Shown here piece by piece: positions 8,319-55,499 of a stretch of 64,000 bases of DNA (positions are counted from its first letter, which is position 1; each line of letters begins with the position of its first letter). The notes under the pieces are model-generated. The model did not search any database. It worked only from the letters and a program-made list of their open reading frames with translations, and was not told the DNA's origin. The stretch is from Aromatoleum toluclasticum ATCC 700605. GTDB taxonomy: Bacteria > Pseudomonadota > Gammaproteobacteria > Burkholderiales > Rhodocyclaceae. The stretch lies in NCBI RefSeq assembly GCF_000378245.1, contig NZ_KB899507.1, forward strand, positions 62,001 to 126,000. The letters run 5' to 3'. A program made the translations under genes and the position numbers.

Positions 8319-8348
8319 TCTGGTCTCCTCGTCTTCTTCCGCGCGGGC

Positions 8349-11299: not shown

Positions 11300-13273
11300 T
11301 CAGACGGTTTCTGCCGATGCCGGTAGTGCCGCCGCCACCAACTCCGCCACATCGAACACCCGCCTCTCCTCCCCGTGCTTCGAAGCGCTGGACGTCAGCA
11401 TCAGCAAGCAGAACGAACACGAGGTCGCGACCTTGCCGGCGCCGGTGTCTATGGCTTCCTGCATGCGCACGTCGTTGACGCGGGCAGTGCCACCTTTTCC
11501 GCCCCAGTAGTTACCGCCACCGGCGCCACAACAAAAGCTTTCCTTGCGATTACGCGGCATCTCGATGACTTGGGCGACGGCACCGAGCACACGGCGCGGT
11601 TCGGCGACGATGTCGTTGTGGCGCGCGAGGTAGCAGGGATCGTGGAACGTGATCTTTTCCGCGTCGTTGCGGACGACGTTCAGGCGGCCGTCGCCGATCA
11701 GCTGGTCGATTAGGACTGAGTGGGGGATGGTCTGCCAGTCGGCGCCGAGTTCAGGGTAGTAGCGGTCGAAGCTGTTGAAGCAGTGCGCGCACATCGTGAT
11801 GACTTTCTGGATCTTGCGCTCGCGGAAGTCCTCGATGTTGGCCTGCGCGATCTCGACGAACTGCATCTCGTCGCCGGCCATCTTCGCGGGGTCGCCCGTG
11901 CAGCGCGACTCTTCGAGGATTCCGTAGGACACCTCGGCGGTCTCGAGGATGCGCACCATGGCACGTGCGACTTCCTGGGCGCGGGGCTCGAAAGCGACGG
12001 AGCAGCCGATCCAGAGCAGGTATTCGGTCTTGCCGGCCTCGAAGAGGGGCACATCCAGCCCTTTGCGCCAGTCGTCGGGGTTCGCCGCGGTGCCGACAAA
12101 GGGGTGGCCGCGGGATTCGAGGTTGCGGTTGGCGAGCGCCAGCGTATCGGGCATTTCCGAACGGTCCATGACGAAATGGCGGCGGAACTCGAGGATGGTC
12201 TCGGCAGGACTGTTGCTCGCGGGACACTCCTCGACGCAGGCTGCACAGGTGGTGCAGTCGAACACTGCCTGCAGGCCGATCTCGTCGATCAGCGCGGCGT
12301 CGTCGAAGCGCCCGTTCTCCAGGTAAGTGGCACAGGTGGTCATGACCTTCTTCGGCGACAGTGCCTTGCCTGTCTGGGCCGCAGGGCACACCTCGTGGCA
12401 GCGCCCGCACCACAGGCACGCGGAGAAATCGAGCAGCTTCTTGCGATCGAGGTCTGCGAGCTTCGCTGCACCGAAGGAGAACTCCTCCCCTTCCGGCGGC
12501 TCGGCGTCGAAATCGATTGGGGCGAGCGTGATCCCTGAGCGGCGGCGGGCGAGCGCGGCGTTCGCGGGCGCGAGCAGCATGTGTGACAGGGGTGTGTGGG
12601 CGATCAGGCCGATGAAGGCGACGCCCAACAGGGCGTGCAGCCACCAGGCGAGGTGCATGCCGAGGGGGTCGGCACCAAGACCACTGTCGCGCAGCGCGCC
12701 CGCGAGCGCGAGTCCGAAGAATTCGCCTCGGCTCGCCGCTGCGGGGGCCACCAGGCGGAGCGCCTCGGCCGCGAAACCCGCGGCGATAGTGATGAGGAAC
12801 AACACTTCCATGGCGACGAAGCCGCGGCGGAAGCCCCCCGTGTCGAGGCGTTCGAGGCGCACGAGGCGCCGCACCAGGAAGAAGGCGACGCCTGCGAACA
12901 TCAGCAGGCCGGCGAGCTCGCGCCCGAGTTCCATTATGAGAAAGCCGAACCGCCCTTCGTACACCGGAACACCGACAAAACTGAGCACGAAGGCGGCGTG
13001 GCCGAGGATGGCGACGAGCGCGCCGCCGAACATCACGCCGTGCGCAAGCCCCGCGACGGGACGCTTCTTGAGGCGCGACGTCAGCAGGCCGCGGGAGGCG
13101 AACGCCCCGAGGTTCAGACGCTCACGCCATGGCCGCGTTCCAACGGGCCCCGCGAGGACCTTGCCCGCCGCGATCAGCGAGGCGCGCCGTTTCAGGCCGA
13201 GAAACACGCTCGCCAGGGCGCCTCCCAGCAGGATCGCGAGGATCGTGTAGTCGAGTGCGGAGATCGCGGACAT
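11300..13273 (-). CDS. Membrane FeS/heme oxidoreductase of the ETF:quinone (EMO) type
   Basis: 657 residues. The N-terminal third is a NarI-like membrane domain with about six helices and histidines suited to heme b (for example His78, His92, His207, His213, His226). Next come two [4Fe-4S] motifs, Cys286/289/292/296 (CLWCGRCHEVCP) and Cys340/343/346/350 (CTTCAACVEECP). The C-terminus has two CCG (HdrB/HdrD-type) repeats with MCAHC (495-498), HDPC (547), CCG (581-582) and SCSFC (619-622). This layout matches the membrane enzymes that move electrons from ETF to (mena)quinone in bacteria using many acyl-CoA dehydrogenases. An ETF alpha gene lies three genes upstream in the same direction, which fits. 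It converges on sufS. Confidence 0.88.
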   Translation of the reverse strand: MSAISALDYTILAILLGGALASVFLGLKRRASLIAAGKVLAGPVGTRPWRERLNLGAFASRGLLTSRLKKRPVAGLAHGVMFGGALVAILGHAAFVLSFVGVPVYEGRFGFLIMELGRELAGLLMFAGVAFFLVRRLVRLERLDTGGFRRGFVAMEVLFLITIAAGFAAEALRLVAPAAASRGEFFGLALAGALRDSGLGADPLGMHLAWWLHALLGVAFIGLIAHTPLSHMLLAPANAALARRRSGITLAPIDFDAEPPEGEEFSFGAAKLADLDRKKLLDFSACLWCGRCHEVCPAAQTGKALSPKKVMTTCATYLENGRFDDAALIDEIGLQAVFDCTTCAACVEECPASNSPAETILEFRRHFVMDRSEMPDTLALANRNLESRGHPFVGTAANPDDWRKGLDVPLFEAGKTEYLLWIGCSVAFEPRAQEVARAMVRILETAEVSYGILEESRCTGDPAKMAGDEMQFVEIAQANIEDFRERKIQKVITMCAHCFNSFDRYYPELGADWQTIPHSVLIDQLIGDGRLNVVRNDAEKITFHDPCYLARHNDIVAEPRRVLGAVAQVIEMPRNRKESFCCGAGGGNYWGGKGGTARVNDVRMQEAIDTGAGKVATSCSFCLLMLTSSASKHGEERRVFDVAELVAAALPASAETV

Positions 13274-13297: not shown

Positions 13298-14491
13298 TCA
13301 GCGTTTCAGGATGGCGGCGGTCGCATTTCCGCCGAGGCCGTTGGTCTGGGCGAGGCCGACCTTCGCGTCCGGCACCTGTCGTCCCCCCGCCTGACCGCGC
13401 AATTGCCAGGTGAGCTCGGCGATCTGGAAGACCCCCATCGCGGTGGTGGCCTCGCCGAAGGATACGAAGCCGCCTGAGGGGTTGATCGGCATCCTGCCAG
13501 TGGGGGCGGTCTCGCCCGCCTCGAGCAGACGCTCGGCCTCGCCGGGTTCGCACAGCCCCCATTCCTCGGGAAAGGCGAGCTCGTAGTAGCAGGTGTTGTC
13601 CTGCAGCTCGGTGAAGCTGATCTCGCGCGGGCCGATGCCGGAGCGCTCGAACGCCTTCATGACGGCGGACTTCGCCTCGGTATGGAAGCTCGGGCCAGAG
13701 GGAACCGGCCCGGCGAGGCTCCGCGGCAAGGCGTCATCGAAGCCGATGGTGGCGACGGTGCTGGTGGCGACCGTGACCGGTTTCGACGTGAAGCGACGCG
13801 CCATGGCTTTCGAGCAGATCACCGCGGCGGCGGCACCGTTCGACACGGGGCAGATCTCGAACAGCCGAAGGGGATTGCTGACATAGGGCGATGCGAGCAC
13901 CTCGTCGAGCGACACAGCCTTCTGGAAACGCGCGAACGGATTGCTCTCGGAGCACTTGCGTGCCTTCACGGTGACCTTTGCCATCTGCGTCTCGGTAGTG
14001 CCGTAGTCGAACATGCGACGACGCGCGAGGGTCGCCCAGAAGGCCGGCCCAGGCATGCCGACACAGCGCTGGCGCAGGTATTCGGGGTCGTTCGCGTCCT
14101 CTACGCCGGAAGTCTGGATCATGCCCTTCGGCATCACCTCGCCGCCAACCACGAGCACGATGTCATGGATGCCGCCGGCAACCAGCGAATAGCCGATGTT
14201 GAAGGCGTTGCCCCCGGCGGCGCAGCCAGCCGAGAGGTTGTAGACCGGGATGCCGGTGCAACCGAGGTCCTCGACGATGTCGTTGCCATTGAGGCCCCAG
14301 CCCTTGCCCCCGGAAAAGCGCGAGCTTGCCGCCGACACGGCCTGCACCTGCTTCCACGAGATCCCCGCATCCTTCATGGCCATATCGACTGCGTGGCGGC
14401 ACAGCTCGGTGACGGACTTCTCTCCCACGATGGCATCGCCGGTCTTGCCGAAGCGATGCATCCCTACTCCCAGAACGACTACTTCCTGCAT
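13298..14491 (-). CDS. SCP-x-type thiolase / acetyl-CoA acetyltransferase-like protein
   Basis: 397 residues from the ATG at 14491 (GGCGGGGAAA upstream; a GTG at 14521 would add ten residues and is possible). The nucleophilic cysteine of thiolases is present at Cys90 in NLSAGCAAGG. The C-terminal region has NPSGGFVSFGEATTAMG in place of the usual GHPxGxSG motif and AQTNGLGG where biosynthetic thiolases have a second cysteine, as expected of the lipid-transfer/SCP-x subclass. Such enzymes cleave beta-ketoacyl-CoA thiolytically, often on bulky or branched substrates, and usually need a DUF35 partner. That partner is encoded directly upstream in the operon. Confidence 0.87.
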   Translation of the reverse strand: MQEVVVLGVGMHRFGKTGDAIVGEKSVTELCRHAVDMAMKDAGISWKQVQAVSAASSRFSGGKGWGLNGNDIVEDLGCTGIPVYNLSAGCAAGGNAFNIGYSLVAGGIHDIVLVVGGEVMPKGMIQTSGVEDANDPEYLRQRCVGMPGPAFWATLARRRMFDYGTTETQMAKVTVKARKCSESNPFARFQKAVSLDEVLASPYVSNPLRLFEICPVSNGAAAAVICSKAMARRFTSKPVTVATSTVATIGFDDALPRSLAGPVPSGPSFHTEAKSAVMKAFERSGIGPREISFTELQDNTCYYELAFPEEWGLCEPGEAERLLEAGETAPTGRMPINPSGGFVSFGEATTAMGVFQIAELTWQLRGQAGGRQVPDAKVGLAQTNGLGGNATAAILKR

Positions 14492-14564: not shown

Positions 14565-15020
14565 TCACCGGTCAAGCAATTTGAATTTCCACGACGTGAA
14601 GGTCCGGCCGTCTTCGTGGTGGATGGGCTCGATCACGAGCCGGACACGCGAGCCGACTTGCATGAACTCGACCGCGTCCACCATCTGCCCGACCACCCGC
14701 AACCCACTGTCCAGGTCGACCACTCCAATCGCGTACGGCATGAAGGGCTTGTCGTAGCGGTGCGGCGGCGGCGGCGGAAAATCGGCGACCGAATAGCTCC
14801 ACAACCGTCCCTCACCGCCAAAGGTGCAGGGCACGATCCTCGACTCGTCGCAGCCGGGATTGCGGCACGCGGCCACCCGCGGGAAGTACGGGGTGTCGCA
14901 GCAGGTGCAGCGGGCGCCGTGCAGGCTGGGCTCGCCCTCTTCCGAAAAGAGCCCCGGGACACAGGGCTCGCGCAGCGACGCCTTATTGGTAGAGTCATCC
15001 ATTGCATACCACTCCGTCAT
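14565..15020 (-). CDS. DUF35 Zn-ribbon/OB-fold protein, partner of the adjacent thiolase
   Basis: 151 residues from an ATG that overlaps the ETF alpha stop as ATGA. A rubredoxin-like zinc ribbon is seen near residues 37-55 (CTCC, CRNPGC), followed by an OB-fold with [20 protein letters not shown] and a basic C-terminus. DUF35 proteins bind SCP-x-type thiolases and aldolases and help with acyl-CoA binding. Located between etfA and the thiolase, it is predicted to form a complex with the thiolase at 13298-14491. Confidence 0.88.
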
Positions 15021-15973
15021 GCCTTCGCGGCCTTGATGAGTTCGGGGAGGATCTCCAGGCAGTCGCCCACCACGCCGTAATGCGCGTAGCGGAAGATCGA
15101 CGCGTCTGCATCCTTGTTGATTGCGACGATGGTCTTCGCAGCGGAGCAGCCGGCCATATGCTGACTGGCGCCGGAGATGCCTACCGCGACGTACAGCGAC
15201 GGGCGGGTGATCTTGCCGGTGAGGCCGACCTGGTGCGATGAGTCGATCCAACCGTCGTCGACAATCGCCCGCGAACCTCCCCACATGCCTCCGAGCGCCG
15301 CGGCCATGTCCTTGACCATCTCGAAGTTCTCCTTGCTGCCCAGACCCCGACCACCCGACACAATGATCGGGGCATCTTCGAGGCGCGCTTCGGCGACCTG
15401 CGGCGCGGAGATCACCTCGAAGCGCTCGGCGATAGCGCCCGCGTCGAGCGCGACCGCGTGCTGGACGACGGTCGTGGGCGCGGCGGCGGGCGCCGCGACG
15501 ATAGAGGTGGTCGTCACCGACAGCACCGCGACCGCCGCCGTCACCTCATAGACGGCATGCGTATCGCCACCGAAAGCCGTTGCCGTCACGTGCAGGCTGC
15601 TGCCGGCCGGCTCCGCGTCGAACACGTTGGCGACCACGGGCACGCCGAGACGGCCTGCGAGGCGCGCCGCAATGACGCGCGATTCGGCACCCTGGTTGAA
15701 CAGCACGGCGCGCGGCGTGGTGCTGCCGCAGTAGGCGGCGAGGGTTGCGACCAGCGCATCCGGCCCGGAAGCCGAAGCGGCGGCTCCCTCGATGCGGTCG
15801 ATGCGGTTCACGCCGTAACGGGCGGCCACTTCGGCCGCCGCGCGCGCGGCATCGCCGAGCACCAGCCAGCGAAATTCCACCCCGGTCGAGCCAGCCAGCT
15901 TGCGTGCGAGGGTCAGCGCCTCTTCGGTACCACCGTCGATGGCATCACCCCAGGAACACAGCACAACGGCCAT
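15017..15973 (-). CDS. etfA: Electron transfer flavoprotein alpha subunit
   Basis: 318 residues from the ATG at 15973 (AAGGAGT upstream). The C-terminal FAD domain is canonical: [47 protein letters not shown], and a final VAINKD. The N-terminal half is a normal ETF alpha/beta-type fold. ETF alpha works as a heterodimer with ETF beta to carry electrons from acyl-CoA dehydrogenases to a quinone reductase. No beta subunit gene is present on either side; upstream is a non-coding divergent promoter region. It probably pairs with a beta subunit encoded elsewhere. First gene of the minus-strand operon that ends with the EMO-type oxidoreductase. Confidence 0.92.
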
Positions 15974-16395: not shown

Positions 16396-17577
16396 ATGGA
16401 TTTTGAGTTTTCCGAAAATGAATGCGAATTCCTGCGTGAAGTCGATCAATTCCTGAAGGAAAACCATGACCCGAAAGTCATGGACGTCACCCGCGAAAAC
16501 ATGGCGCAGGTGTGCGATACGCCGGAGCGCCGCGCCTTCATGAAGAAGGTCGCCGAAAAGGGCTGGCTCGGCATCACCTGGCCGAAGGAATATGGCGGCC
16601 AGGAAGGCGCCGGTTTCTACGAGTACCTGCTCAACGAAAAACTTTCTTCGGTGGGCGCGCCGCAGATCGGCAAGGGCGTGGGCATCATCGGCAAGACGCT
16701 CATTAATGTCGGCTCGGAAAAGCTCAAGCGCGAATTCCTGCCGCAGATCCTCGACGCGAAGATCGAATTCGCCGTCGGCTATTCGGAACCGTCGGCCGGC
16801 TCGGACGCCGCGGCGATGCGCCTGAAGGCCGAGCGCAAAGGCGACGGCTGGCTGCTCAACGGGCAGAAGGTGTTCACCACCTCCGCGCACTTCGCCGACT
16901 GGTACTGGGTCGGCGCGCGGACCGATCCGGACGCGCCCAAGCACCACGGGATCAGCCTCTTCCTCGTGCGCATGGACGACCCGGGCCTGACCATCCACCC
17001 GATGTACACGATGGGCAACGAGCGCACCAACGCGGTGTTCTTCGACAACGTGTTCGTGCATGACGACTATCGCGTCGGCGAGCTCAACAAGGGCTTCCAG
17101 TACATCGCCGAGGCGCTCGACATCGAACGATTCAGCATGTTCACCTTCGCGCCGATCCGCGGGCGGATGCAGGTTTTGGCCGACTACGTGAAGACGGCGA
17201 AGCGGGACGGCAGGCCGCTGAAAGACGACGCGGTGGTGCGCCACAAGATCGCCGAATTGGCCACCGAGTGCGAGGTTGCACGCGTGCTCGGCGTGAAGTT
17301 CGTCGATGCCGCGATCAACAGCAACAAGACGCCGACTGTCGAGGCCTCGGAATACAAGCTGTACGCGACCGAACTGTCGCGGCGCCTCGCCGATGCGACG
17401 ATGGATATCGTCGGGCCTGGCGGCCAGCTCGCGCTGCACACCGAGGACGCGCCACTCAGGGGCCGCGGCGAGAGCTGCTACACGTACACGGTGATCGATA
17501 CCATCGGCGGCGGCTCCTCGCAAGTGCAGCGCAACATCATCGCCAAGCGCAAGCTCGACCTGCCCAAGAACTTCTGA
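16396..17577 (+). CDS. Acyl-CoA dehydrogenase (FadE26/FadE29-like class)
   Basis: 393 residues with the three-domain acyl-CoA dehydrogenase fold. Visible are the FAD motif YSEPSAGSDAA (129-139), KVFTTSAH (158-165) and the C-terminal GGGSSQVQRNIIAKR. The MCAD-type catalytic glutamate near the C-terminus is replaced by glycine, but Glu244 in ALDIERF aligns with the isovaleryl-CoA dehydrogenase base, so activity is likely. Relatives act on bulky or branched acyl-CoAs and often as heterotetramers with a second type of subunit. A second dehydrogenase of the complementary kind is encoded four genes downstream (19822-20985). First gene of a 15-kb plus-strand operon. Confidence 0.9.
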   Translation: MDFEFSENECEFLREVDQFLKENHDPKVMDVTRENMAQVCDTPERRAFMKKVAEKGWLGITWPKEYGGQEGAGFYEYLLNEKLSSVGAPQIGKGVGIIGKTLINVGSEKLKREFLPQILDAKIEFAVGYSEPSAGSDAAAMRLKAERKGDGWLLNGQKVFTTSAHFADWYWVGARTDPDAPKHHGISLFLVRMDDPGLTIHPMYTMGNERTNAVFFDNVFVHDDYRVGELNKGFQYIAEALDIERFSMFTFAPIRGRMQVLADYVKTAKRDGRPLKDDAVVRHKIAELATECEVARVLGVKFVDAAINSNKTPTVEASEYKLYATELSRRLADATMDIVGPGGQLALHTEDAPLRGRGESCYTYTVIDTIGGGSSQVQRNIIAKRKLDLPKNF

Positions 17578-17590
17578 CGGGGCCCCGGCG

Positions 17591-18751
17591 ATGAATTTCC
17601 TCGACGGCTACACCGTTCTCGATCTGGCGAGCGTCGGCCCGGCAGCGCGTGCGTCGCGCATCCTGGCGGACTTCGGCACGCGCATCATCAAGGTCGCGCC
17701 GGTTGCGGCCAAGGGCGCGAAGCAGGTCGAGCCCGTCTTCCATGCGTACGGCGCGGGGCGCGGCACGCAAAAGATCCGCCTCGACCTCAAGTCCGATGCC
17801 GGACGGGACACCTTGCTGCGTCTGGCCGAGCGGGCGGACGTCGTGATCGAAAGCTACCGCCCCGGCGTCGCGGCCAGGCTCGGCGTGGGTTATGCCGAGA
17901 TCGCCGCGCGCAATCCGAAGATCATCTACTGTTCGACCAGCGGCTACGGCCAGGACGGCCCCTGTGCGCAATGGGTCGGCCACGACATCAACTATCTCGC
18001 GATGTCCGGCTTCCTCGCCTGCAGCGGCCGCGACGCGGAAGGCCGCCCTGCCCTGCCCGGCGCAACGCTCGCCGACGGCGCGGGCGGCGGCATGCACGCC
18101 GCCCAGTCCATCCTTGCGGCGCTGCTGCGCCGGGAGCGTACCGGCGAAGGCGCCTGTCTCGACGTGGCGATCACCGACGGCGTGCTGAACCTGATGTCGC
18201 TGTACCTCGACCAGTATCTCGCCACGGGTGAAGACACCAGCCCCGGATCGGGCGTACTGACCGGAAAATATGCCTGGTACGGCGTGTATACCGCGGGCGA
18301 CGGGCGGCACATCGCCGTCGGCGCGATCGAAGGGCATTTCTTCCGCAACCTGTGCCGGCTGCTGGAGCTCGAAGCCTTCGCCGACCACCAGTACGACGAC
18401 GCGCAGCAGGACGCGATGCGCGCGGCCTTCGCGGCGCGCTTCCTGACGCGCAGCCGGGACGAATGGGTCGCGCTGCTGGCCGGGGCAGACACTTGCGTCG
18501 CGCCGGTGCTGGCGATCCCGGAGGTGGCCGCGCATCAGCAGTTCCGCGAGCGCCAGGCCTTCATGACGGCGGAGCATCCGCGCCGCGGCGCCTTCGAACA
18601 GCTCGCGCCGGTGTTCGCGGGCGGCGACCGCAAGCAGCCGGTTCATCACGTCGCACCCGCCGGCCATACCGACACCGACGCGATTCTCGCCGAAGCGGGC
18701 TTCCCCGCCAGCCAGATCGCCGAGCTGCGCGCAGCGGGGTGCATTGAATGA
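17591..18751 (+). CDS. Alpha-methylacyl-CoA racemase (class III CoA-transferase fold)
   Basis: 386 residues of the CaiB/BaiF family. It is called a racemase because of the AMACR hallmarks: GHDINYLAMSG containing His131, and LADGAGGG containing Asp162, matching the His126/Asp156 catalytic pair of the Mycobacterium tuberculosis enzyme. Racemases of this type epimerise 2-methyl-branched acyl-CoAs so that only one stereoisomer enters beta-oxidation, as in sterol and isoprenoid side-chain breakdown. It starts 13 bases after the dehydrogenase stop and overlaps the next gene as ATGA. A plain CoA-transferase role is the alternative, less likely given both catalytic residues. Confidence 0.83.
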   Translation: MNFLDGYTVLDLASVGPAARASRILADFGTRIIKVAPVAAKGAKQVEPVFHAYGAGRGTQKIRLDLKSDAGRDTLLRLAERADVVIESYRPGVAARLGVGYAEIAARNPKIIYCSTSGYGQDGPCAQWVGHDINYLAMSGFLACSGRDAEGRPALPGATLADGAGGGMHAAQSILAALLRRERTGEGACLDVAITDGVLNLMSLYLDQYLATGEDTSPGSGVLTGKYAWYGVYTAGDGRHIAVGAIEGHFFRNLCRLLELEAFADHQYDDAQQDAMRAAFAARFLTRSRDEWVALLAGADTCVAPVLAIPEVAAHQQFRERQAFMTAEHPRRGAFEQLAPVFAGGDRKQPVHHVAPAGHTDTDAILAEAGFPASQIAELRAAGCIE

Positions 18752-19293
18752 GCGCGCGCGACTCACAAACCGGTAGCAATGCCACCGACCTGCCCATCGA
18801 AGCACAGCGGATGATCGACACGCCGCTCTACGAAGAGCCCGGAGAGTTCCCGATCGAACTGGGCTACGTCTACAACACCTGCGCGGCGGTGCAGAACGGC
18901 AATCCGATCTTCTGGGATCCGGCCGTCGCCGAGGCGATCACCGGGGGCGCGATCGCGCCGCCGACGATGATGTCCGTGTGGTTCCGCCCGCATTACTGGG
19001 CGCCGGGAGCCACGGGCGAGCGCAAGGCGCTGCAGACCCATTTCGACCTCAAGCAGATCCTCGACCTGCCCGAAGCGGTCGTCGCCAGCAACGAAGCGGT
19101 GTTCGGCGAGCCTGTCCGCCCGGGCGATCGGCTGACGACGCGCCAGATCGTGCGCAGCATCGGACCACTCAAACAGACGAAGCTGGGCACCGGCCGATTC
19201 TGGACAATCGACGTCGAAACCACCAACCAGCACGGTGAATGGGTCGGCACCGAGATCTACACCATGCTGGGCTACCGGAGGCCGGAGCAATGA
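18748..19293 (+). CDS. FAS1-type MaoC-like dehydratase half-subunit
   Basis: 181 residues with a single hot-dog fold related to the N-terminal region of fungal FAS1 dehydratases and to the MaoC-like part of ChsH2. Motifs are NGNPIFWDP (about 51-59) followed by AIAPPTMMSVWF. It most likely forms a heteromeric enoyl-CoA hydratase with the next gene product, which holds a catalytic Asp/His pair; in ChsH1-ChsH2 complexes one subunit is catalytic and the other shapes the acyl pocket. Overlaps the racemase gene and the next gene by 4 bases each, consistent with a fixed stoichiometry. Unlike ChsH2 it has no C-terminal DUF35 domain. Confidence 0.82.
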   Translation: MSARDSQTGSNATDLPIEAQRMIDTPLYEEPGEFPIELGYVYNTCAAVQNGNPIFWDPAVAEAITGGAIAPPTMMSVWFRPHYWAPGATGERKALQTHFDLKQILDLPEAVVASNEAVFGEPVRPGDRLTTRQIVRSIGPLKQTKLGTGRFWTIDVETTNQHGEWVGTEIYTMLGYRRPEQ

Positions 19294-19778
19294 GCGCGAC
19301 CGACGTGAGCGGCATCACTGCTGCGGACATCGCCGAAGGCCAGGAACTGCCCGCACTGCGCCATCCCGTGAGCGCCACGACGATCGTGCTCGGCGCGCTG
19401 GCGAGCCGCGACTGGCGGCCGATGCACCATGACAAGGACTTCGCGGTCGAGCGCAACGGCGTGAAGAACATCTTCATCAACACACCCAACAACGCCGCCT
19501 GGTTCGAACGCTACATCACCGACTGGACCGGCCCCAAAGGCCGCCTCGGGCGCCTGCGCTTCGAGATGAAGAAATCCGTCTTCCCCGGCGACGAGATGTG
19601 CTTTTCCGGGGTCGTGCGCAAGCTGGCCCGCGATTCCGCGGGCTGCGACTGGGCCGACCTTGAGCTGACGATTTCGGTCGACGGCGAAGTGCGCACCACC
19701 GGCCGCGCGCGCGTTGCCATCCCCGCCGACCCCGCCGACAACCCCTGGACCCGCAAGGGCGAGCGCTGGCTGCCTTGA
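19290..19778 (+). CDS. MaoC-like enoyl-CoA hydratase subunit
   Basis: 162 residues, hot-dog fold. The hydratase-2 motif appears as SRDWRPMHHDKDFA, keeping the Asp-x4-His catalytic spacing of R-specific hydratases although the usual GDxNP is changed to RDWRP. The start at 19290 overlaps the preceding stop as ATGA; an earlier start at 19239 lies inside the neighbour and is rejected. It is predicted to be the catalytic half of a hydratase with the 18748-19293 product, adding water to a branched or cyclic 2-enoyl-CoA. Confidence 0.82.
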   Translation: MSATDVSGITAADIAEGQELPALRHPVSATTIVLGALASRDWRPMHHDKDFAVERNGVKNIFINTPNNAAWFERYITDWTGPKGRLGRLRFEMKKSVFPGDEMCFSGVVRKLARDSAGCDWADLELTISVDGEVRTTGRARVAIPADPADNPWTRKGERWLP

Positions 19779-19821
19779 GGCACCTGCGCGCAATGCCCGC
19801 CACCCTTTCGAGAGGCTGCCA

Positions 19822-20985
19822 ATGGACCTGAAATTCACCGACGAGCAGAACATGCTCCGCGACATGACCCGCAACCTGTGCGCCGACTTCAGCGGCACGG
19901 ATGTGGTGCGCAAGATGGAAAACGACCCGCTCGGCGTCCCCGCCGACCTGTGGCAGCAGATGCGCGAGACGGGTCTGCTCGGCATGGCGATCCGGGAGGA
20001 GGACGGCGGAATGGGCCTGAACATGCTCGACTGCGCGGTGATCTACGAGCAGCTCGGGCGCCACCTCGCGCCCGGACCCTACTTCCCCAGCACTGTGATG
20101 GTGGCCGGGGCGCTGCGTCACGCGGGCGAGGCCGCCGACCGGCGCACGCTGCTCGGCGCGATCGCGGCCGGCGACACGGTCGTGGTGCCGGCGTGGCTGG
20201 AACCGGACGGCGGCTTCGGCCCTGCCGGGGTGCAGCTGCGCGCCACGCGGCGCGGCGACGACTATGTCCTCTCCGGCACCAAGCGGCACGTCTTTCACGC
20301 CGCCGCTGCGCAACAGCTCCTCGTGCTGGCGCGCACGGGCGAAGCCGCCGACGCGATCGACCTCTTCCTCGTCGATACGAAGGCGCCCGGCGTCACGCTG
20401 ACGCAGCAGCATTCGATGGCCTCCGACACCCAGTACCGCGTTGATTTCGACAATGTCCGCGTGAGCGCGGACAGGCACGTCGGCGCCGAAGGGCGCGGCT
20501 GGCAGGCGTGGGAAGCCGCGATGTACGAGGGAATCATCCTGCTCGCGGCGTGGGCTGCAGGCGGCGCCGAGCGCGCGCTCGAAATCACCGTCCAGTATTC
20601 CAAGGAACGCGAGCAGTTCGGCAAGCCGATCGGCGCCTTCCAGTCGCTCGCGCACTACATGGCCGACGCGAGCGCAGTGGTCGACGGCGCGAAGATGCTG
20701 GTGCTGGAAGCCGCCTGGGCGCACGCCGCGGGCAAGGACGTGAAGCGCCTCGCGGCGATGGCCAAGCTCTTCGCCTGCCGCGCGTTCCGCGAGGTCACGC
20801 ACATGGCGCAGCAGGTGCACGGCGGCATGGGCTTCACGCTCGACTACGACATCCAGCTCTTCTACCGGCGCGCCAAGCAGCTGCAGATGAACTGGTGGGA
20901 CTCGTCCTACCTCGAGGAACTGATCGCGGCGGACATCCTCGACGGCGACGCCGGACGGACCATCCCCGATCCCTTCACCGCCTGA
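19822..20985 (+). CDS. Acyl-CoA dehydrogenase (FadE27/FadE28-like class)
   Basis: 387 residues from the ATG at 19822 (AGAGGCT upstream; an extension to 19714 lies inside the preceding gene). It has the acyl-CoA dehydrogenase N-terminal helices, a beta domain and the C-terminal motifs REQFGKPIGAFQSLAHYMAD and QVHGGMGFT. The C-terminal part is shortened relative to MCAD, and there is no QIYEGT-type base; Glu236 in MYEGII is at the isovaleryl-CoA-dehydrogenase-type position. It differs clearly from the 16396-17577 enzyme and is the complementary class found in alpha2beta2 dehydrogenases of steroid catabolism, so the two may form one heteromer. Confidence 0.87.
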   Translation: MDLKFTDEQNMLRDMTRNLCADFSGTDVVRKMENDPLGVPADLWQQMRETGLLGMAIREEDGGMGLNMLDCAVIYEQLGRHLAPGPYFPSTVMVAGALRHAGEAADRRTLLGAIAAGDTVVVPAWLEPDGGFGPAGVQLRATRRGDDYVLSGTKRHVFHAAAAQQLLVLARTGEAADAIDLFLVDTKAPGVTLTQQHSMASDTQYRVDFDNVRVSADRHVGAEGRGWQAWEAAMYEGIILLAAWAAGGAERALEITVQYSKEREQFGKPIGAFQSLAHYMADASAVVDGAKMLVLEAAWAHAAGKDVKRLAAMAKLFACRAFREVTHMAQQVHGGMGFTLDYDIQLFYRRAKQLQMNWWDSSYLEELIAADILDGDAGRTIPDPFTA

Positions 20986-21021
20986 TCCGCTTACGACCGC
21001 CCGCCCGACCGAGGAATCCTC

Positions 21022-21795
21022 ATGGCACGCCCGAATCCGCATTACGGAACCGGCACCTTCCGCCGTCGCCTCCGCGTAAGCGCTGCACCGCGCGAGGTCG
21101 CCGTCGAGCTGGAGGACTGCAACCACGGCTTCCGTCTGCGCCTGTGGCACGACGGCGAGCGCGTCACGACCGTCGAGGTGCAGCCGATGCGCATCCCGTT
21201 CAACACCTGCGCCGAGGCGGTCCGCCCCTTGCAGCGCGCCATCGGCCATCGCCTGGACGAGGACGAAGCGACGTTGCGCAGCCGCCTCGTCCCGGGCGAC
21301 AACTGCACGCACATGCACGACATGACGATCCTCGCCGTCGCGCATGCCGCGGCACACCGCGGCGAGGAACGCACGACGCGGCTGTACGACATGGCGGTGG
21401 ACGACGAGCACGACGGCATCACCCGGGCGCGCATCGCCTGCGACGGCGTCCCGGTTCATGAATGGGACATCGCCACTCCGCTCTCGCACACCCTCACGGC
21501 GCCGGCCGAATTTGCAGGCAAACCGGTGATGCGCGGCTTCCACGCATGGGCGTCGCAGGCCTTCGAAGGCATGCCGCGCGAGGCGGCCATTGCACTGCAG
21601 CGCGCCTATTTCGTCGCTCAGGCGCGGCGCCACAGTTTCGAGCCGATTGCCCAGCATCCGGGCATCTCCGACGGCATGCCGCAAGGCGCCTGCTACTCGT
21701 ACAACACGGGTGCCGTCGAACGGGCGCTCCGCAGTCCGGGCACGGTGCGCGACTTCACGCACACGCCGGAACGCCTGCTGAAGTTCCTGCCCTGA
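21022..21795 (+). CDS. DUF2889 family protein
   Basis: 257 residues with a GAGGAAT ribosome site. The sequence has the DUF2889 signature CTHMHDM (about 94-100), a His/Cys/Asp-rich cluster after a beta-rich N-terminal half, and a second conserved region with HEWDI and GACYSYN. The family is often found in catabolic operons for steroid and aromatic compounds, but no activity has been established. No signal peptide or membrane segment, so it should be cytoplasmic. It lies between the dehydrogenase/hydratase group and the CoA-transferases of the operon. Confidence 0.75.
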   Translation: MARPNPHYGTGTFRRRLRVSAAPREVAVELEDCNHGFRLRLWHDGERVTTVEVQPMRIPFNTCAEAVRPLQRAIGHRLDEDEATLRSRLVPGDNCTHMHDMTILAVAHAAAHRGEERTTRLYDMAVDDEHDGITRARIACDGVPVHEWDIATPLSHTLTAPAEFAGKPVMRGFHAWASQAFEGMPREAAIALQRAYFVAQARRHSFEPIAQHPGISDGMPQGACYSYNTGAVERALRSPGTVRDFTHTPERLLKFLP

Positions 21796-21811
21796 ACCTC
21801 GTGGAGCCGCA

Positions 21812-23044
21812 ATGACCCCCACTATTTCGGCCGCTCCGCGCGGCGCACTGGCAGGAATCCGCGTCATCGACTTCGGTCAGATGGTCTCTGCGCCCTACTG
21901 TGCGAAGCTCTTCAGCGATTACGGGGCCGACGTCATCAAGGTCGAGCTGCCCGAGGGGGATGCCGCGCGTGCTGCCGGGCCGTTCCCGCGCGACGTGCCG
22001 CACCCGGAGAAGAGCGGGCTGTACTTCTTCCACAACACCAACAAGCGCGGCATCACCTGCGACGTCGCACACCCCGAAGGCCGTCGCCTGTTCCTCCGCC
22101 TCCTTGAGCGCAGCGACGTGCTGATCGAGAACAACCTGCCGCAGCGCATGCGCGCGTGGGGGCTCGATTACGCGACGCTTGCAGAGATCAACCCTGACCT
22201 GGTGGTGATCTCCATCACCCCCTTCGGGCAGACCGGCCCTTACAGCGGCTGGAACGGCTACGACCTGAACGCCTTCCACCTGTCGGGCGCGAGTTCGCGC
22301 TATTGCGGCCGTCCGGGCGAAACGCCGCTCGAACACGGCACCTTCGCCGCGGACTACTTCGGTGCGGTCACGGCCGCCGCGTGGGGACTGGCAGCCGTAT
22401 ATGGGCGCGAGCTCGCCGGCGGCGGCCAGCAGGTCGACGTGTCCTGCGCCGAGGCGATCGCCGCGGCCTTCGTCGGCGGACAGAACATCGGCTGCTACGC
22501 GCAGGAAGGCCGCTTCGACAAGCGCACCGGTGTCGGCATGCCGCTCGGCGCACCGGCCACGATCCTGCCCTGTCGCGACGGCCACGTCTGGATGCTGGCG
22601 CTCGAACCCGGCCAGTGGAACGGCTTGCGCAAAGTCATGGACGACCCGGACTGGGCCAGCCTGGAGATGTTCCAGGACATGTACTCGCGCGCGCAGAACG
22701 CCGACGTCATCTACGGGTTCATCCGCGAGTGGACGATGCAGCACGGCAAGATGGAAATCATGGAGAAGTGCCAGGCCGCGGGCTGCCCGGTGACAGCCGT
22801 GTTCACCATCGCCGAGGCGGCCGCGCAGCCGCACCTGCAAGCGCGCGAATACTTCGTCGACATGGAACATCCGCAACTCGGCCGGCTGAAGAACCTGGGT
22901 GCCCCCTTCAAGCTGCCGGCCTGCCCCGGGGGACCCGAACGTCCCGCCCCCCTGCTCGGCCAGCACAACGCCGAGGTGTACCGCGAACTGCTGGACCTGA
23001 GCGCGGCGGACGTGCGCCGGCTCGCGCAATGCAACGTGATCTGA
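21812..23044 (+). CDS. Class III (CaiB/BaiF) CoA-transferase
   Basis: 410 residues. The Rossmann-like N-terminus is typical (GIRVIDFGQMVSAPYCAKLF, then YGADVIKVE). The catalytic aspartate is kept in FAADYFGAVTAAAWG, and GQQVDVS follows as usual. It lacks the GHDINY racemase signature, so it is read as a true CoA-transferase that moves CoA between carboxylates without forming free acyl-AMP. Substrates are unknown. It starts 16 bases after the DUF2889 gene and is followed 14 bases later by a second, divergent paralogue; such pairs sometimes form heteromeric transferases. Confidence 0.88.
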   Translation: MTPTISAAPRGALAGIRVIDFGQMVSAPYCAKLFSDYGADVIKVELPEGDAARAAGPFPRDVPHPEKSGLYFFHNTNKRGITCDVAHPEGRRLFLRLLERSDVLIENNLPQRMRAWGLDYATLAEINPDLVVISITPFGQTGPYSGWNGYDLNAFHLSGASSRYCGRPGETPLEHGTFAADYFGAVTAAAWGLAAVYGRELAGGGQQVDVSCAEAIAAAFVGGQNIGCYAQEGRFDKRTGVGMPLGAPATILPCRDGHVWMLALEPGQWNGLRKVMDDPDWASLEMFQDMYSRAQNADVIYGFIREWTMQHGKMEIMEKCQAAGCPVTAVFTIAEAAAQPHLQAREYFVDMEHPQLGRLKNLGAPFKLPACPGGPERPAPLLGQHNAEVYRELLDLSAADVRRLAQCNVI

Positions 23045-23058
23045 AGGGGGAATTGCGC

Positions 23059-24279
23059 ATGGCCAACCAACTGCCGTTGAAGGGTGTCCGGGTCGTCAAT
23101 TTCGGCTGGGTGTGGGCGGGGCCGGTGGTGGGGCAGACGCTCGGTTTTCTCGGCGCCGAAGTGCTGAAGATCGAATCCGCAGCGCGCGTCGACATGACCC
23201 GTAACCTGCCGCCCTTCGCCGACGGCATCCCCGGCCCCGACCGCAGCCTGTCGAATCACGCCTGCTGGGCCGGCAATGGCTCGGTGTCGCTCAACCTCAA
23301 GGAGCCCGAAGCGCTGGAACTGGCGCTGCGGCTGATCGCGACCGCCGATGTGGTGGTCGAGAATTTCGGCCCTGGCGTCATGGAGCGCCTCGGGCTCGGT
23401 TACGAACGCCTGCGCGAGGTGAAGGAGGACATCATCCTGTTCTCGATGCCCGCGGCGGGGCTCTACGGTCCGCTCGAGCATGTCCGCACCTACGGCCTGA
23501 GCCTCACCTCGCTGACGGGCCTCGACAGCCTCGTCGGCTACAAGGGCGGCGAACCGGTTCCGGTGGAGAACGCCTTCTCCGACCCCTACGCCGGCATCTT
23601 CGGCGCCTTCGCCGTGCTCGCCGCGCTCAACCACCGCCGCAACACCGGCATCGGCCAGCACGTCGACTTCTCGCAGCAGGAGGCGGTGATGCAGATGGTG
23701 GCGCCGGCGTGGATGGACTACGCGCTGAACGGGCGCAGCGGCGGGCCGAAGAGCAACGAACACCCTACCGCCGCCGCGGCGCCGCATGGCGTCTTCCCCT
23801 GCCGCGGCGACGACCGCTGGATCAGTATCGCCGTCTGTCGGGACGAGGAGTGGCAAGGCCTTGTCGCCGCGATGGACAACCCGGACTGGGCCGCGACGCC
23901 CGCCTTCGCGACGCTCCCGGCGCGGGTGGCCGCGATCGACCAGCTGCATGAACACATCGCGCAGTGGACGCACGAGTTCGACGACCGCGAGCTCGCTGCG
24001 CGCCTGCAGGAGCACGGCGTCGCCGCTGCGCCCGTACTGAACGTCGGCGACCTGCTGCATGACCCTCACTACTGCGCCCGCGACACCTTCGTCGAGGTCA
24101 CCCACCCGCTGGGCTTCCGCGAAACGATCTACGGCGCCTACGTGAAGACCAGCCGCACCCGTCCCGACATCCGCCCCGGCCCCGTCGTCGGACAGGACAA
24201 CGAGCGGGTGTTCAGGACGCTCCTTGGCATTCCGGAAGCGGAATACGAGCGCCTGAAGCGCGACCGGATCATCTACTGA
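23059..24279 (+). CDS. Class III CoA-transferase, second of a tandem pair
   Basis: 406 residues from the ATG at 23059 with AAGGGGGAA upstream; a longer frame to 22303 overlaps the previous gene and is rejected. N-terminal GVRVVNFGWVWAGP and FLGAEVLKIE are family motifs. The catalytic aspartate is retained in NAFSDPYAGIFGAFA. The segment that normally reads GxxGP is altered (AAGLYGPLEH), so its substrate pocket probably differs from the upstream paralogue. Tandem class III genes can encode one heteromer (as in benzylsuccinate CoA-transferase BbsEF), which is possible here. Confidence 0.87.
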   Translation: MANQLPLKGVRVVNFGWVWAGPVVGQTLGFLGAEVLKIESAARVDMTRNLPPFADGIPGPDRSLSNHACWAGNGSVSLNLKEPEALELALRLIATADVVVENFGPGVMERLGLGYERLREVKEDIILFSMPAAGLYGPLEHVRTYGLSLTSLTGLDSLVGYKGGEPVPVENAFSDPYAGIFGAFAVLAALNHRRNTGIGQHVDFSQQEAVMQMVAPAWMDYALNGRSGGPKSNEHPTAAAAPHGVFPCRGDDRWISIAVCRDEEWQGLVAAMDNPDWAATPAFATLPARVAAIDQLHEHIAQWTHEFDDRELAARLQEHGVAAAPVLNVGDLLHDPHYCARDTFVEVTHPLGFRETIYGAYVKTSRTRPDIRPGPVVGQDNERVFRTLLGIPEAEYERLKRDRIIY

Positions 24280-24332
24280 CAAACACCGGCCCGCAGGCAC
24301 CCGCCGCCCGGCCCATACATCGGAGACATGTC

Positions 24333-25256
24333 ATGAAGTTCGCCCTCGCAACGCCTGCGCTGAACAACTACCCCGCCGCCATGGCCCCGTGGGAGCCGCG
24401 TGCCGGCGGGCCCGAAATCCTGCGCTACGCGCGGAAGGCCGACTCCCTGAGCTGGGACTGGCTGACGATTCCCGAGCACATCGTGATGCCCACCGACATG
24501 AAGGAGGTGATGGGTTCGCGCTTCGCCGAGGGCATCGCCGCCTCCGCCGTGCTGATGGGCGCGACCGAGCGCATCCACATGCTGACCTACATCCTGGCGC
24601 TGCCCTACCGCCATCCGTTGGTGCTCGCCAAGCAGATCGGCACGATGGAATTCCTTGCGGGAGGGCGCTTCACGCTCGGCACCGCGGTCGGCCATCTGGA
24701 ACGCGAGTTCGAGACGCTGGGCATCCCCTTCGAGCAGCGCGGGCCGATGACCGACGAATACCTCAAGGCCCTCAAGGAAGCGTGGACCTCGGAGCACCCG
24801 AAATTCCACGGCGATTTCGTCAAGTTCGACAACATCCTCGTCGAACCCAAGCCCGTGCAGAAACCGCACCCGCCGATTTTCGTCGGCGGCAATTCGCCGG
24901 CCGCGATGCGCCGCGCCGCCGTGCACGGCGACGGCTGGATTCCCTGGCTCGTCACGGCCGAAGACCTCCCGGGCTGCATCGCCTACATGAAGAGCTTGCC
25001 GGCCTACGAAGAGAAGGCCGACCGCTTCGAGATCCTCGTCACCACCACTGCTTACAAGGTCGAGGACTTCTCGCACGCAGAGAAAGGCGAGACGGAGGTT
25101 TCCAGCGACCGCGACAGCGTGCTGCGCGACCTCGAGGCGCTGCAGAAGGCCGGTGCCACCTCCGTCCAGGTCATGCCGCCGAAGCTCGAAACCTTCGAGC
25201 AGTGCCTTGACTGGATCGAGTGGTACGACCAGGAAATCATCCCGCAATTCCGTTGA
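24333..25256 (+). CDS. Luciferase-like (LLM class) flavin-dependent oxidoreductase
   Basis: 307 residues forming a TIM-barrel bacterial-luciferase-like domain. Family motifs are LTIPEHIVMP near residue 44, LPYRHPLVLAKQIGTMEFLAGGRFTLGTAVGH (in part, about 91-120) and PPIFVGGNSPAAMRRA near 185. Members use either FMNH2 with oxygen as monooxygenases or F420 as reductases or dehydrogenases; sequence alone does not settle this. In this CoA-thioester operon it may oxidise or reduce a ring intermediate. It is preceded by GGAGAC and followed closely by a crotonase gene. Confidence 0.85.
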   Translation: MKFALATPALNNYPAAMAPWEPRAGGPEILRYARKADSLSWDWLTIPEHIVMPTDMKEVMGSRFAEGIAASAVLMGATERIHMLTYILALPYRHPLVLAKQIGTMEFLAGGRFTLGTAVGHLEREFETLGIPFEQRGPMTDEYLKALKEAWTSEHPKFHGDFVKFDNILVEPKPVQKPHPPIFVGGNSPAAMRRAAVHGDGWIPWLVTAEDLPGCIAYMKSLPAYEEKADRFEILVTTTAYKVEDFSHAEKGETEVSSDRDSVLRDLEALQKAGATSVQVMPPKLETFEQCLDWIEWYDQEIIPQFR

Positions 25257-25283
25257 TCCGCCCCCTCCACACGGAGACTGCCC

Positions 25284-26114
25284 ATGCAGGACACCTACCG
25301 CTTCCTGACGACCCGTATTGAAGAAAATGTCGGGATCATCACTCTCAACCGCCCCGAGAAGCTCAACGCGCTGAGCTGGGAACTGGCCGAGGAACTGGCC
25401 ACCGTCTTCTACCGCTGGCGCAACGTCGATGAAGTCCGCGCCATCGTGCTGACCGGCGCCGGCCGCGCCTTCTGCGCCGGGGGTGATATCGACTGGATCT
25501 CCGGCGACAGCGACCGGCCGATGCCGGGCACCTCCGACGTGTCGCGCCCGATTCCGCGCTCGCAGCGCAAGACGCCCGGCGGACCCTTCATGGACGCGAC
25601 CCGGCAGATGATCGCCGTCGACAAACCCATCGTCGCCGCCCTGCATGGGCACGCAGTCGGCGCCGGGCTCGCCTACGCCATGGTGTGCGACCGGCGCTTC
25701 GCGGACACGACACTCAAGATGTCGGCGATCTTCACCAACGTGGGTGTCGCACCGGACTGCGGCCTGTCGTGGTTCCTGCCGCGCGTCGTCGGCCTGCCCA
25801 CCGCGTTGATGATGGTCGAGACCGGACGCGTCTTCCGCGCCGACGATTGCAAGGCCATGGGTCTGGTCGACGAACTGGTGCCGGAAGGCGAAAGCTTCGC
25901 GGCCGCCTTCGAATATGCCAAGACCCTGGCCCAGCGCGCGAGTGTCGCCGTCGACATGGCCCGCCGCATGATCTACATGGGCCAGACCGCCACGCTCGAA
26001 CAGATGCTCGACTACGAAGGTATCGCTGGCGTCATCGTCGCCTCGTCGCTCGACGCAAAGGAAGGCACCCAGTCCTTCCTGGAGAAGCGCAAGCCCGTGT
26101 ACCACGGAATCTGA
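25284..26114 (+). CDS. Enoyl-CoA hydratase/isomerase (crotonase) family protein
   Basis: 276 residues. The crotonase fold is clear from VGIITLNRPEKLNALS, FCAGGDIDW and the oxyanion-hole region HGHAVGAGLAYAMVCD. The position of the first hydratase glutamate (Glu144 in rat enzyme) is not acidic here, while APDCG carries an aspartate at the second region, the pattern of delta-isomerases and PaaG/FadB1x-type proteins. It is therefore more likely an enoyl-CoA isomerase or another crotonase reaction than a standard hydratase. Last soluble enzyme before the exported protein gene. Confidence 0.85.
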   Translation: MQDTYRFLTTRIEENVGIITLNRPEKLNALSWELAEELATVFYRWRNVDEVRAIVLTGAGRAFCAGGDIDWISGDSDRPMPGTSDVSRPIPRSQRKTPGGPFMDATRQMIAVDKPIVAALHGHAVGAGLAYAMVCDRRFADTTLKMSAIFTNVGVAPDCGLSWFLPRVVGLPTALMMVETGRVFRADDCKAMGLVDELVPEGESFAAAFEYAKTLAQRASVAVDMARRMIYMGQTATLEQMLDYEGIAGVIVASSLDAKEGTQSFLEKRKPVYHGI

Positions 26115-26235
26115 CGCACTCGGCCGAGCGCGGCAAAGACCGCGCCGCGCCCCTCTCATCGCCAACCCCGGCAAGGAAGCGCCTGCGCACCGGCACGCAG
26201 TGGTGTGTCGGTGCGCCCCATGACATGGAGTTGAG

Positions 26236-26928: not shown

Positions 26929-27009
26929 CCCGTCTTGGTGATGCGGGCATTGTCCCGCGCGCTTAGATTCGTCTCCACCGACTCCCCAGCCCCCACCGAG
27001 GTCCGCGCC

Positions 27010-27885: not shown

Positions 27886-27914
27886 CGCACCCTCAACCCC
27901 CGCACGAGGTTCGC

Positions 27915-28409: not shown

Positions 28410-28431
28410 AGCGGCTCACGAACCTCCCCTC

Positions 28432-30840: not shown

Positions 30841-30856
30841 CAGGAAACCCTCCAGA

Positions 30857-47223: not shown

Positions 47224-47286
47224 GGCGAGCGTCTCCAATGGAAAGCGACAGCGCACGAAGCCGGCCGATGCTGCCGGCGAGACGCC

Positions 47287-47805: not shown

Positions 47806-47928
47806 TGCTGGAATTCCTTCGGTAGACGATCCGCGGTCCAGTGTAGAGACGGACCGCGCCGCGCTTGCTGCGGTACGGCTTCGGATCCGGCCGATCGCGT
47901 CTCATTTGCGGACAGCGCGGGGCGAGCC

Positions 47929-49119: not shown

Positions 49120-49129
49120 ACCTCCCCCG

Positions 49130-49852: not shown

Positions 49853-49855
49853 GGA

Positions 49856-50830: not shown

Positions 50831-50870
50831 GCTGCGGTCTCCTTCCCTGGTTCGTGGCGGTGTTGGTTTT

Positions 50871-51650: not shown

Positions 51651-51684
51651 GTTGGTGTCCCCTTGTGGATGTCCGGGTTGAGGT

Positions 51685-52116: not shown

Positions 52117-52136
52117 GGCACTTCTCCAGGGATTCG

Positions 52137-53300: not shown

Positions 53301-53312
53301 TCGCCAGCTCTC

Positions 53313-54233: not shown

Positions 54234-54261
54234 CAAGTCGTCTCCAGGTGCGGTGGCGTGC

Positions 54262-55470: not shown

Positions 55471-55499
55471 GAGCGTTCTCCGTTCCCGTTTGCTATACG

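Follow-up and report, generated by a model that had tools for sequence, protein, structure and literature searches.

Steroid degradation that does not depend on oxygen is described as a route in which the 1-testosterone hydratase/dehydrogenase AtcABC is followed by hydrolytic cleavage of the A-ring to DSAO, coenzyme A (CoA) activation, a proposed retro-aldol loss of acetyl-CoA that yields 2,5-SDAT, and cleavage of the B-ring to HIP (PMC6208644, PMC6678751, PMC8399759). According to two reviews, no enzymes have been assigned to A-ring hydrolysis, to CoA activation, to B-ring cleavage or to the way from there to HIP (PMC6678751, PMC8399759). The estrogen route also ends at HIP according to a further review, which reports that a thiolase-family gene of the estrogen cluster, aedK, has been knocked out by others (PMC12507874). 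The edc genes of Novosphingobium tardaugens are arranged in two divergent operons: in the first, a dehydrogenase gene is accompanied by genes for two MaoC hydratases, and in the second, a chsH2-like gene by one for a lipid-transfer protein (PMC7793797). Here we study a stretch of 64,000 nucleotides from Aromatoleum toluclasticum ATCC 700605 (contig NZ_KB899507.1, positions 62,001 to 126,000), hereafter called the window, and in it a module of five genes for two acyl-CoA dehydrogenase-type proteins, a racemase and two half-size hydratases. With a probability of roughly three in four, this module provides the beta-oxidation core of a cluster for the oxygen-independent breakdown of androgens (2,3-seco pathway) in a betaproteobacterium, and the locus would then represent a short, testable list of genes for the route of denitrifiers from the A-ring product of testosterone to HIP.

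Gene calling combined with Pfam and NCBIfam profile searches defined the gene list of the window, the start sites of the dehydrogenase, racemase and hydratase genes being chosen. The module consists of ACAD1 (16396-17577), RAC (17591-18751), HYDA (18748-19293), HYDB (19290-19778) and ACAD2 (19822-20985), which are all on the + strand and represent the first five genes of the + strand arm (16396-32110) of a divergent locus of 19 genes (11300-32110; - strand arm 15973-11300). Spacing within the + strand train ranges from -4 to 121 bases, with -4 at RAC/HYDA and at HYDA/HYDB. The five-gene order and the 4-base overlaps given by an initial annotation of this DNA are thus exact, whereas its limits of 16396-20985 for the unit are too narrow: the + strand train runs on to 32110, the divergent train to 11300, and a related cluster lies at about 45.2-56.7 kb. 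Contigs of other genomes were scanned for the same arrangement, and since only the best 80 of 590 matching stretches were used, the counts are lower bounds. The five genes occur in the same order and on the same strand in at least 26 of these 80 loci, from Acidimicrobiia, Embleya, Yinghuangia, Catenulispora and other Actinomycetota, Myxococcota/Deltaproteobacteria, a proteobacterial bin (L092) and a metagenome-assembled genome (MAG) of the Steroidobacteraceae (L116), which carries most genes of both clusters of the window. The block is also syntenic in 7 of 7 other genomes of the genus examined, some of them cut by contig ends. Because of this recurrence and synteny the five-gene arrangement is far beyond chance.

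Within the dehydrogenase pair, both proteins carry Pfam ACAD domains, those of ACAD2 being scored on a longer open reading frame, and the best PDB matches of ACAD1 are Tcur3483 (6wy8_B, 6wy9_A) followed by 4x28_A, which we take to be ChsE4-ChsE5. ACAD2 matches 4l1f_A first and Tcur3481 (6wy8_A) second. Tcur3481-Tcur3483 presumably is a heteromer of steroid catabolism, and its two chains do share one PDB entry; it is, however, distant in sequence from the proteins of the window. Residues were counted in the window protein and 25 relatives, taken from 25 of the 26 complete loci (L098 was omitted as near-identical to L096). E244 of ACAD1, the isovaleryl-type base already noted in the initial annotation, is found in all 26 rows. 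In ACAD2 the aligned position 237 is G, A or S in every row (G237 in the window), and position 358, which we placed by eye and from its motif as the presumed usual site of the C-terminal catalytic Glu, is W in 25 rows and Y in one. The catalytic Glu is therefore confined to one subunit in the 26 rows, and ACAD2 looks like an inert partner rather than a second catalyst of the complementary class.

The same asymmetry is seen in the hydratases. HYDB matches the smaller chain of 4w78 and 4wnb, the ChsH1/ChsH2 complexes, with E 1.6e-13, and HYDA (Pfam FAS1_DH_region) matches the larger chain weakly (E 7e-5); the chain labels of one entry are the reverse of those of the other. D41 and H46 of HYDB are present in 26/26 rows. 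At the presumed Asp site HYDA has N50 in 26/26 rows, with F or Y at position 55, so that in these rows and in the alignments to the 4w78 chains the catalytic Asp/His occur in one half only. An AlphaFold2 model of HYDB (predicted local-distance score, pLDDT, 86) contains a helix of 16 residues (65-80). The model of HYDA (pLDDT 82 overall) has only a helix at 76-79, in a stretch of low confidence, and no long central helix. For ChsH1/ChsH2 a pattern of a catalytic half with a long helix and another half with a short one has been described (PMC11321319). HYDA and HYDB are fused to a single open reading frame in three near-identical Acidimicrobiia loci (L094, L096, L098), in a Myxococcales locus (L097) and in Prescottella equi, and these fusions speak for a physical pairing of the two proteins. 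In both pairs one member thus seems equipped for catalysis and the other not, because E244 and D41/H46 are kept while ACAD2 and HYDA are without such residues. ACAD1 may form a heteromeric dehydrogenase with ACAD2 as inert partner, and HYDB a heteromeric hydratase with HYDA as inert, substrate-binding partner. That both pairs are of the heteromeric type had been proposed before, and the kinship to the Mycobacterium ChsH and Thermomonospora Tcur3481/3483 proteins points in the same direction and makes it likely that the substrate is one of the bulky, branched steroid acyl-CoAs.

RAC carries the GHDINY motif with H131, together with D162, as had been read from the sequence. MCR and AMACR are its top PDB matches (E 9e-59), ahead of CoA-transferases, and H131, D162 and E247 align with MCR, positions to which we ascribe a catalytic role. 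H131 and D162 are conserved in 25 and E247 in 26 of the 26 rows. These MCR-type residues and the best matches indicate that RAC is of the true racemase type, as had been suggested; that it acts only as a CoA-transferase was rejected on the same grounds. Among the matches listed in our literature search, an alpha-methylacyl-CoA racemase is not mentioned for the anaerobic seco-pathway, and an earlier mention in primary papers or supplements is possible.

The assignment of the locus to the 2,3-seco pathway starts from the enzyme encoded further downstream in the + strand arm. Here genes for the FAD, FeS and Mo subunits of a xanthine-oxidase-family enzyme of the AtcABC type are found (27010-30840). 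Degenerate atcA primers, printed in a paper on testosterone degradation in an estuary, give a product of about 1100-1200 bp (PMC5554518). Both primer sites are present with 0 mismatches in the Mo-subunit gene (28432-30840), at 28534-28556 and 29680-29706, and span 1173 bp end to end; in shuffled sequences there was no match, so the expectation is 0. Because the Mo-enzyme matches both primers, the cluster of the window is assigned to the anaerobic 2,3-seco androgen type. Homologs in g530, g505 and one g510 genome show 0-1 mismatch per primer, and other homologs tried from outside the genus show more, except L177. Among the 26 AtcA-like rows (25 distinct ones, as the window copy is present twice; some are fragments) no pair is less than 57.8% identical. 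For three paralogs, namely the Mo subunit at 5431-7809 of the window and two proteins retrieved in the family search, the highest identity to any of these rows is 40.6%. According to a study on androgens in the gut, Azoarcus and Aromatoleum carry atcABC and kshAB (PMC9980454).

With the AtcABC clusters of Sterolibacterium (acd3) and Thauera (GDN1) the locus shares the diagnostic AtcA sequence and the three subunits together. A figure legend for Sterolibacterium places a CoA-transferase and an electron-transfer flavoprotein (ETF) subunit near AtcABC, as in the window, but does not name a racemase or a hydratase pair around it, several genes being called unknown. None of the texts consulted counts the five-gene module among the genes of an AtcABC cluster, and it may be mentioned in supplements or in the primary atc papers.

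Co-occurrence adds to this picture. HYDA orthologs of at least 83% identity are found in 8 of the 17 genomes of the genus. Exactly the same 8 have the steroid 9-alpha-hydroxylase domain KshA_C (Fisher 4e-5) and an AtcA-like protein of at least 87%. EchA20, a marker of HIP degradation, occurs in 9 of the 17, of which 7 are shared with the module (p 0.015). In the family (297 genomes, taken to be the same in both searches as the handles agree) an ACAD1 ortholog of at least 84% identity is present in 17 genomes. An AtcA-like protein (at least 72%) is present in these same 17 and, as a truncated copy, in G944, i.e. in 17/17 ACAD1-positive versus 1/280 ACAD1-negative genomes (Fisher 9e-27); three further genomes have only paralogs of 37-39%. 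In three genomes (G841, G896, G941) the two genes share a contig but are separated by hundreds of kilobases, so that co-occurrence is not just a matter of adjacency. Membership of the cluster in the 2,3-seco pathway is, on the basis of the primer sites and of this co-occurrence, well supported.

Judged by sequence, the nearest relatives of the module in studied pathways are the estrogen (edc/aed) clusters, which are without a racemase. The estrogen cluster of Novosphingobium ES2-1 encodes a dehydrogenase with 52% identity to ACAD1, and the plasmid cluster of P. equi DSSKP-R-001 encodes one with 51%. In both, relatives of HYDA (36-37%) and HYDB (36-37%) follow the ACAD1 relative. P. equi also has matches to ACAD2 (41%) and to two proteins of the second cluster of the window discussed below, LTPb (48%) and DUF35b (39%). 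In P. equi the same genes stand in a row, whereas in ES2-1 the first three are adjacent and a 38% relative of ACAD2 lies in a divergent operon. From gene order, the gene at 15542-16717 of L052 could be aedK. In contrast to the window, no RAC is found in the module of ES2-1, of P. equi or of Mycobacteroides chelonae S00154 (L119); the latter is listed among estrogen degraders in a review (PMC12507874). In contig C12 and the other stretches of the genome searched, which represent part of it, neither EdcA (the ES2-1 P450) nor EdcC had a match, and an EdcB-type protein had one of 30% on C12.

The igr operon (ChsE1-ChsE2, ChsH1-ChsH2-Ltp2) shares with the window paired dehydrogenases, half-hydratases, a DUF35 protein and a thiolase-fold partner, and the chemistry is likely to be shared as well. 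In igr, however, DUF35 is fused to the MaoC partner (ChsH2), whereas in the window it is a gene of its own (14565-15020, - strand), as the initial annotation had remarked. The window has in addition a racemase, its thiolase-fold proteins LTP2 and LTPb are without the YDHF motif, and the dehydrogenases are far apart in the tree. Furthermore, contig C12 of the same genome carries an igr-type set, with homologs of ES2-1 ChsH2 (37%), ChsH1 (52%), Ltp2 (66%) and of the dehydrogenases (51% and 36%), besides FadD3 (51%), IpdA (61%), IpdB (60%), EchA20 (68%) and IpdC (51%); the ES2-1 gene names in this comparison are partly our own reading of its annotation. The module is thus not the igr operon of this organism, a candidate that we rejected, and the initial view of an igr-like module for sterol side chains gives way to that of an edc/aed-type paralog in an AtcABC-type cluster.

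Two thiolase-fold proteins with a DUF35 gene next to them are encoded in the window. LTP2 (13298-14461, - strand; PRK06059 370.8 bits, under the cut-off of 424) belongs to the - strand arm together with the stand-alone DUF35 protein, which has the C-terminal OB fold of ChsH2 (OB_ChsH2_C 51.4 bits; zf-ChsH2 19.6 bits, under the cut-off of 23.2). LTPb (52137-53300) and DUF35b (51685-52116) belong to the second cluster on the - strand. A YDHF motif is described for Ltp2 and YDCF for an SLP (PMC12329534). In our alignment Ltp2 of C12 has YDHF, LTPb has YDCF, close to the YDCY of Sal, and LTP2 has the atypical QDNT. LTP2 keeps the Cys in CAAG, and LTPb is without Cys there. The assumption that both DUF35 pairs are aldolases was weakened, since LTP2 has QDNT though YDCF of LTPb is Sal/SLP-like. 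LTP2 is 93-98% identical in the genus and thus a conserved protein with an unusual active site.

How the module could work in this pathway, i.e. the assembly of the heteromers, the substrate, the step and the removal of C-2 that would yield a C-1 thioester, we infer from the comparisons above. After opening of the rings A and B the substituent at C-9, CoA-C1(=O)-C10H(CH3, C-19), would be the substrate of the module. RAC would epimerise the alpha-methyl centre to give the right isomer for the dehydrogenase, and dehydrogenation at C9-C10 followed by hydration would lead to a tertiary C9 alcohol. As a tertiary alcohol can not be further oxidised, such a module would end with an aldolase, and a DUF35-dependent retro-aldolase, for which LTPb with its YDCF motif and DUF35b are the best candidates, would release propionyl-CoA and leave HIP with its C9 ketone. 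Removal of the carbons attached to C-9 would then be the step common to the androgen and the estrogen routes. Estrogens are without C-19, so a homologous module would need no racemase there and would release acetyl-CoA; that C-10 bears the C-19 methyl in androgens only would explain both the added racemase and propionyl-CoA in place of acetyl-CoA. We assign C9-C10 cleavage to HIP and propionyl-CoA tentatively, at somewhat less than even odds. A little more doubtful still is the wider proposal that the module is a C9-C10 cleavage system with a racemase adapted to C-19 and that an oxygen-independent steroid cluster (AtcABC-type genes, an amidohydrolase, DUF35 and its thiolase-fold partners, CoA-transferases) and the module occur also outside the Proteobacteria, in Acidimicrobiia and Myxococcota-type genomes. 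If true, the presence or absence of a racemase would tie gene content to the C-19 methyl of the substrate, and the proposal would point to organisms of other phyla that may degrade steroids without oxygen.

The module could also serve the same pathway at an earlier step, acting on DSAO-CoA to form a C4-C5 double bond and a tertiary C5 alcohol before acetyl-CoA is lost and 2,5-SDAT formed. Sharing a locus with AtcABC-type genes, whose product acts shortly before, would suit this, and it is stated in the literature that dehydrogenation, hydration and retro-aldol cleavage at C-5 were proposed and that inhibitors of acyl-CoA dehydrogenases impair this step (PMC6208644, PMC6678751). We nevertheless think it unlikely, because DSAO has no alpha-methyl group, which leaves the racemase without an evident role, and because the estrogen relatives carry the homologous dehydrogenase and hydratase although no such intermediate occurs in their described pathway. 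Far less probable is a module for the first cycle on a 2-methyl-branched C26 acyl-CoA of the sterol side chain, as in ChsE4-ChsE5, with the racemase acting on a 25R/25S mixture. Known sterol degraders do need a racemase for such a mixture, and 4x28_A is among the best matches of ACAD1; yet ACAD1 co-occurs with AtcA-like genes over 297 genomes, its closest studied relatives lie in clusters for estrogen ring degradation, and the genome has a separate igr-type set. In addition Steroidobacter denitrificans and Thauera terpenica, for which atcABC is reported, are stated to be unable to grow on cholesterol.

Finally, the module might serve a non-steroid polycyclic or isoprenoid acid and share its locus with AtcABC-type genes merely as a neighbour. 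Embleya, Yinghuangia and Catenulispora, which have the module but no AtcA-like protein at 60% (Yinghuangia has one at 38%), would fit this reading, as would G002, a genome without EchA20. It is hard to reconcile with the AtcA-like protein in 17/17 ACAD1-positive genomes of the family, also where the genes are hundreds of kilobases apart, and with the exact co-occurrence with KshA_C in the genus, and we regard it as improbable.

Outside the family, EchA20 was found at E 1e-30 in 17 of 35 genomes with an ACAD1 relative, for the most part with 36-55% identity and in one case with 72%. KshA_C was above the cut-off in 25 of the 35, mostly with scores under that of the window genome. In samples of the class and of the phylum, HYDA was detected at E 1e-8 in 2 of 368 and 0 of 397 other genomes, numbers that are limited by the sampling. 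AtcA-like genes are clustered in five genomes (G810, G834, G803, G802, G818) with varied subsets of homologs of the amidohydrolase, LTPb, DUF35b, ECHb, CoA-transferases, LTP2, DUF35 and EtfA. G818 has its AtcA-like cluster and the module/ACAD1 on one contig of 3.0 Mb. Most of the AtcA-bearing genomes from outside the family are MAGs, in which binning errors are possible. A midpoint-rooted tree of ACAD1 was calculated from 64 dehydrogenases (47 rows from 44 of the 80 loci and 17 further rows), after matches below 45% identity or incomplete ones were dropped. Presence of RAC was labelled by a script that considered matches up to 2.5 kb away, and these labels are approximate. The presence of RAC is clustered on this tree, with 7 changes versus 18.4 in shuffles, and is not of single origin. 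Six rows with estrogen clusters fall outside the main RAC-bearing group (weak support 82/31), and two igr-type rows split off on a long branch (100/100).

Several observations weigh against the proposed role in the 2,3-seco pathway. An AtcA-like protein of at least 60% identity is present in 6 of the 35 genomes with an ACAD1 relative and missing in 29, so the module itself is not specific to this pathway. In the parts examined, five of the six AtcA-like clusters are without the five-gene module, which, or ACAD1, lies elsewhere; the cluster of G818 is the exception in having an ACAD2-like gene (47%). Neither RAC nor HYDA nor HYDB is seen at the ACAD1-ACAD2 locus of G834 (L105). On the tree 14 rows are labelled as being without RAC, some of these rows lying inside the RAC-bearing part, and this label changes 10 times; clusters other than those for estrogens can therefore be without RAC. 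Additional copies of ACAD1 without RAC (77%; L223, L228) are present in two g505 genomes. L177, a second AtcA-like gene of the Steroidobacteraceae MAG, matches the primers with 0 mismatches at 60% identity to the gene of the window, which means that a primer match marks the family and not one ortholog. Within the genus, G009 and G015 have EchA20 without the module. Conversely, in the single-contig genome G002 the module is present together with the AtcA-like gene and KshA_C, whereas EchA20 is not found at E 1e-40, and in 160 kb plus 25 kb around its locus the matches to twelve steroid genes of C12 reach at most 42%; module and HIP pathway can thus be uncoupled. Moreover, the motif of LTP2 is neither that of Ltp2 nor that of Sal.

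The neighbours of some of these genes may be mentioned here. Near L177 lie genes for another amidohydrolase (40%), for two paired dehydrogenases (36%) and for an LTPb-like protein (41%), and the extra ACAD1 homologs in L223 and L228 are found near genes for short-chain dehydrogenases/reductases (SDR).

In the + strand arm the module is adjoined by a gene for a DUF2889 protein (21022-21795, PF11136), whose position is kept within the genus and in several other genera of the family. On a plasmid of Azospirillum sp. B510 (L053, 8981-11025) DUF2889 neighbours a HYDA/HYDB pair (HYDB 46%) to which neither a dehydrogenase nor a racemase gene is directly joined. Tandem family III CoA-transferases follow (CaiB1 and CaiB2, 21812-24279, Pfam CoA_transf_3), homologs of which (62-74%) cluster with AtcA-like genes in four of the five genomes from outside the family whose clusters were examined. 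Between these and the AtcABC-type genes are an F420-type LLM oxidoreductase, a crotonase and a SnoaL-like protein (24333-26928; TIGR03619, ECH_1, SnoaL_4), the oxidoreductase scoring 204.1 bits against a cut-off of 166.9 for TIGR03619. The arm ends with CaiB3 (30857-32110), a further Pfam-assigned family III CoA-transferase, which adjoins the AtcA-type gene also in g530, g2, g548 and one g505 genome, though not in the short loci of others. In the - strand arm, besides DUF35 and LTP2, an EtfA-type electron-transfer flavoprotein (15017-15973; Pfam ETF, ETF_alpha) and an Fe-S/CCG protein (11300-13273; Pfam CCG, Fer4) are encoded, the latter perhaps transferring electrons from ETF to quinone. No EtfB was found among the genes scanned near the EtfA-type gene; a beta subunit is either supplied from elsewhere or absent.

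The second cluster (45226-56681, - strand; Pfam assignments) comprises an old-yellow-enzyme-type oxidoreductase, an amidohydrolase, crotonases, DUF35b, LTPb, CaiB4 and CaiB5, and is separated from the first by about 13 kb of other genes. It belongs to the same pathway, because it directly follows CaiB3 in G004 and, minus the old-yellow-enzyme gene, in two g530 genomes, and because several of its members are grouped with AtcA-like genes in genomes from outside the family. In G002 and G003 the first gene of the second cluster directly follows CaiB3.

Each cluster contains a protein of a type linked to F420, the LLM oxidoreductase (24333-25256) in the first and an F420H2-dependent quinone reductase-like protein (47287-47805) in the second. 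The figure legend of a review places F420 biosynthesis genes among the steroid clusters of Sterolibacterium; such genes were not found among the nine open reading frames beside FadD3 (C12:244-11042). Two further gene groups are present in the window: a second three-subunit enzyme of the xanthine-oxidase family (5431-9215), the Mo subunit of which is 26% identical to the AtcA-type one, and a region (58283-62967) with a DmpG/DmpF-like aldolase and dehydrogenase, an FAA-hydrolase fold protein, an SDR and a flavin reductase, which resembles the lower pathway of meta-cleavage.

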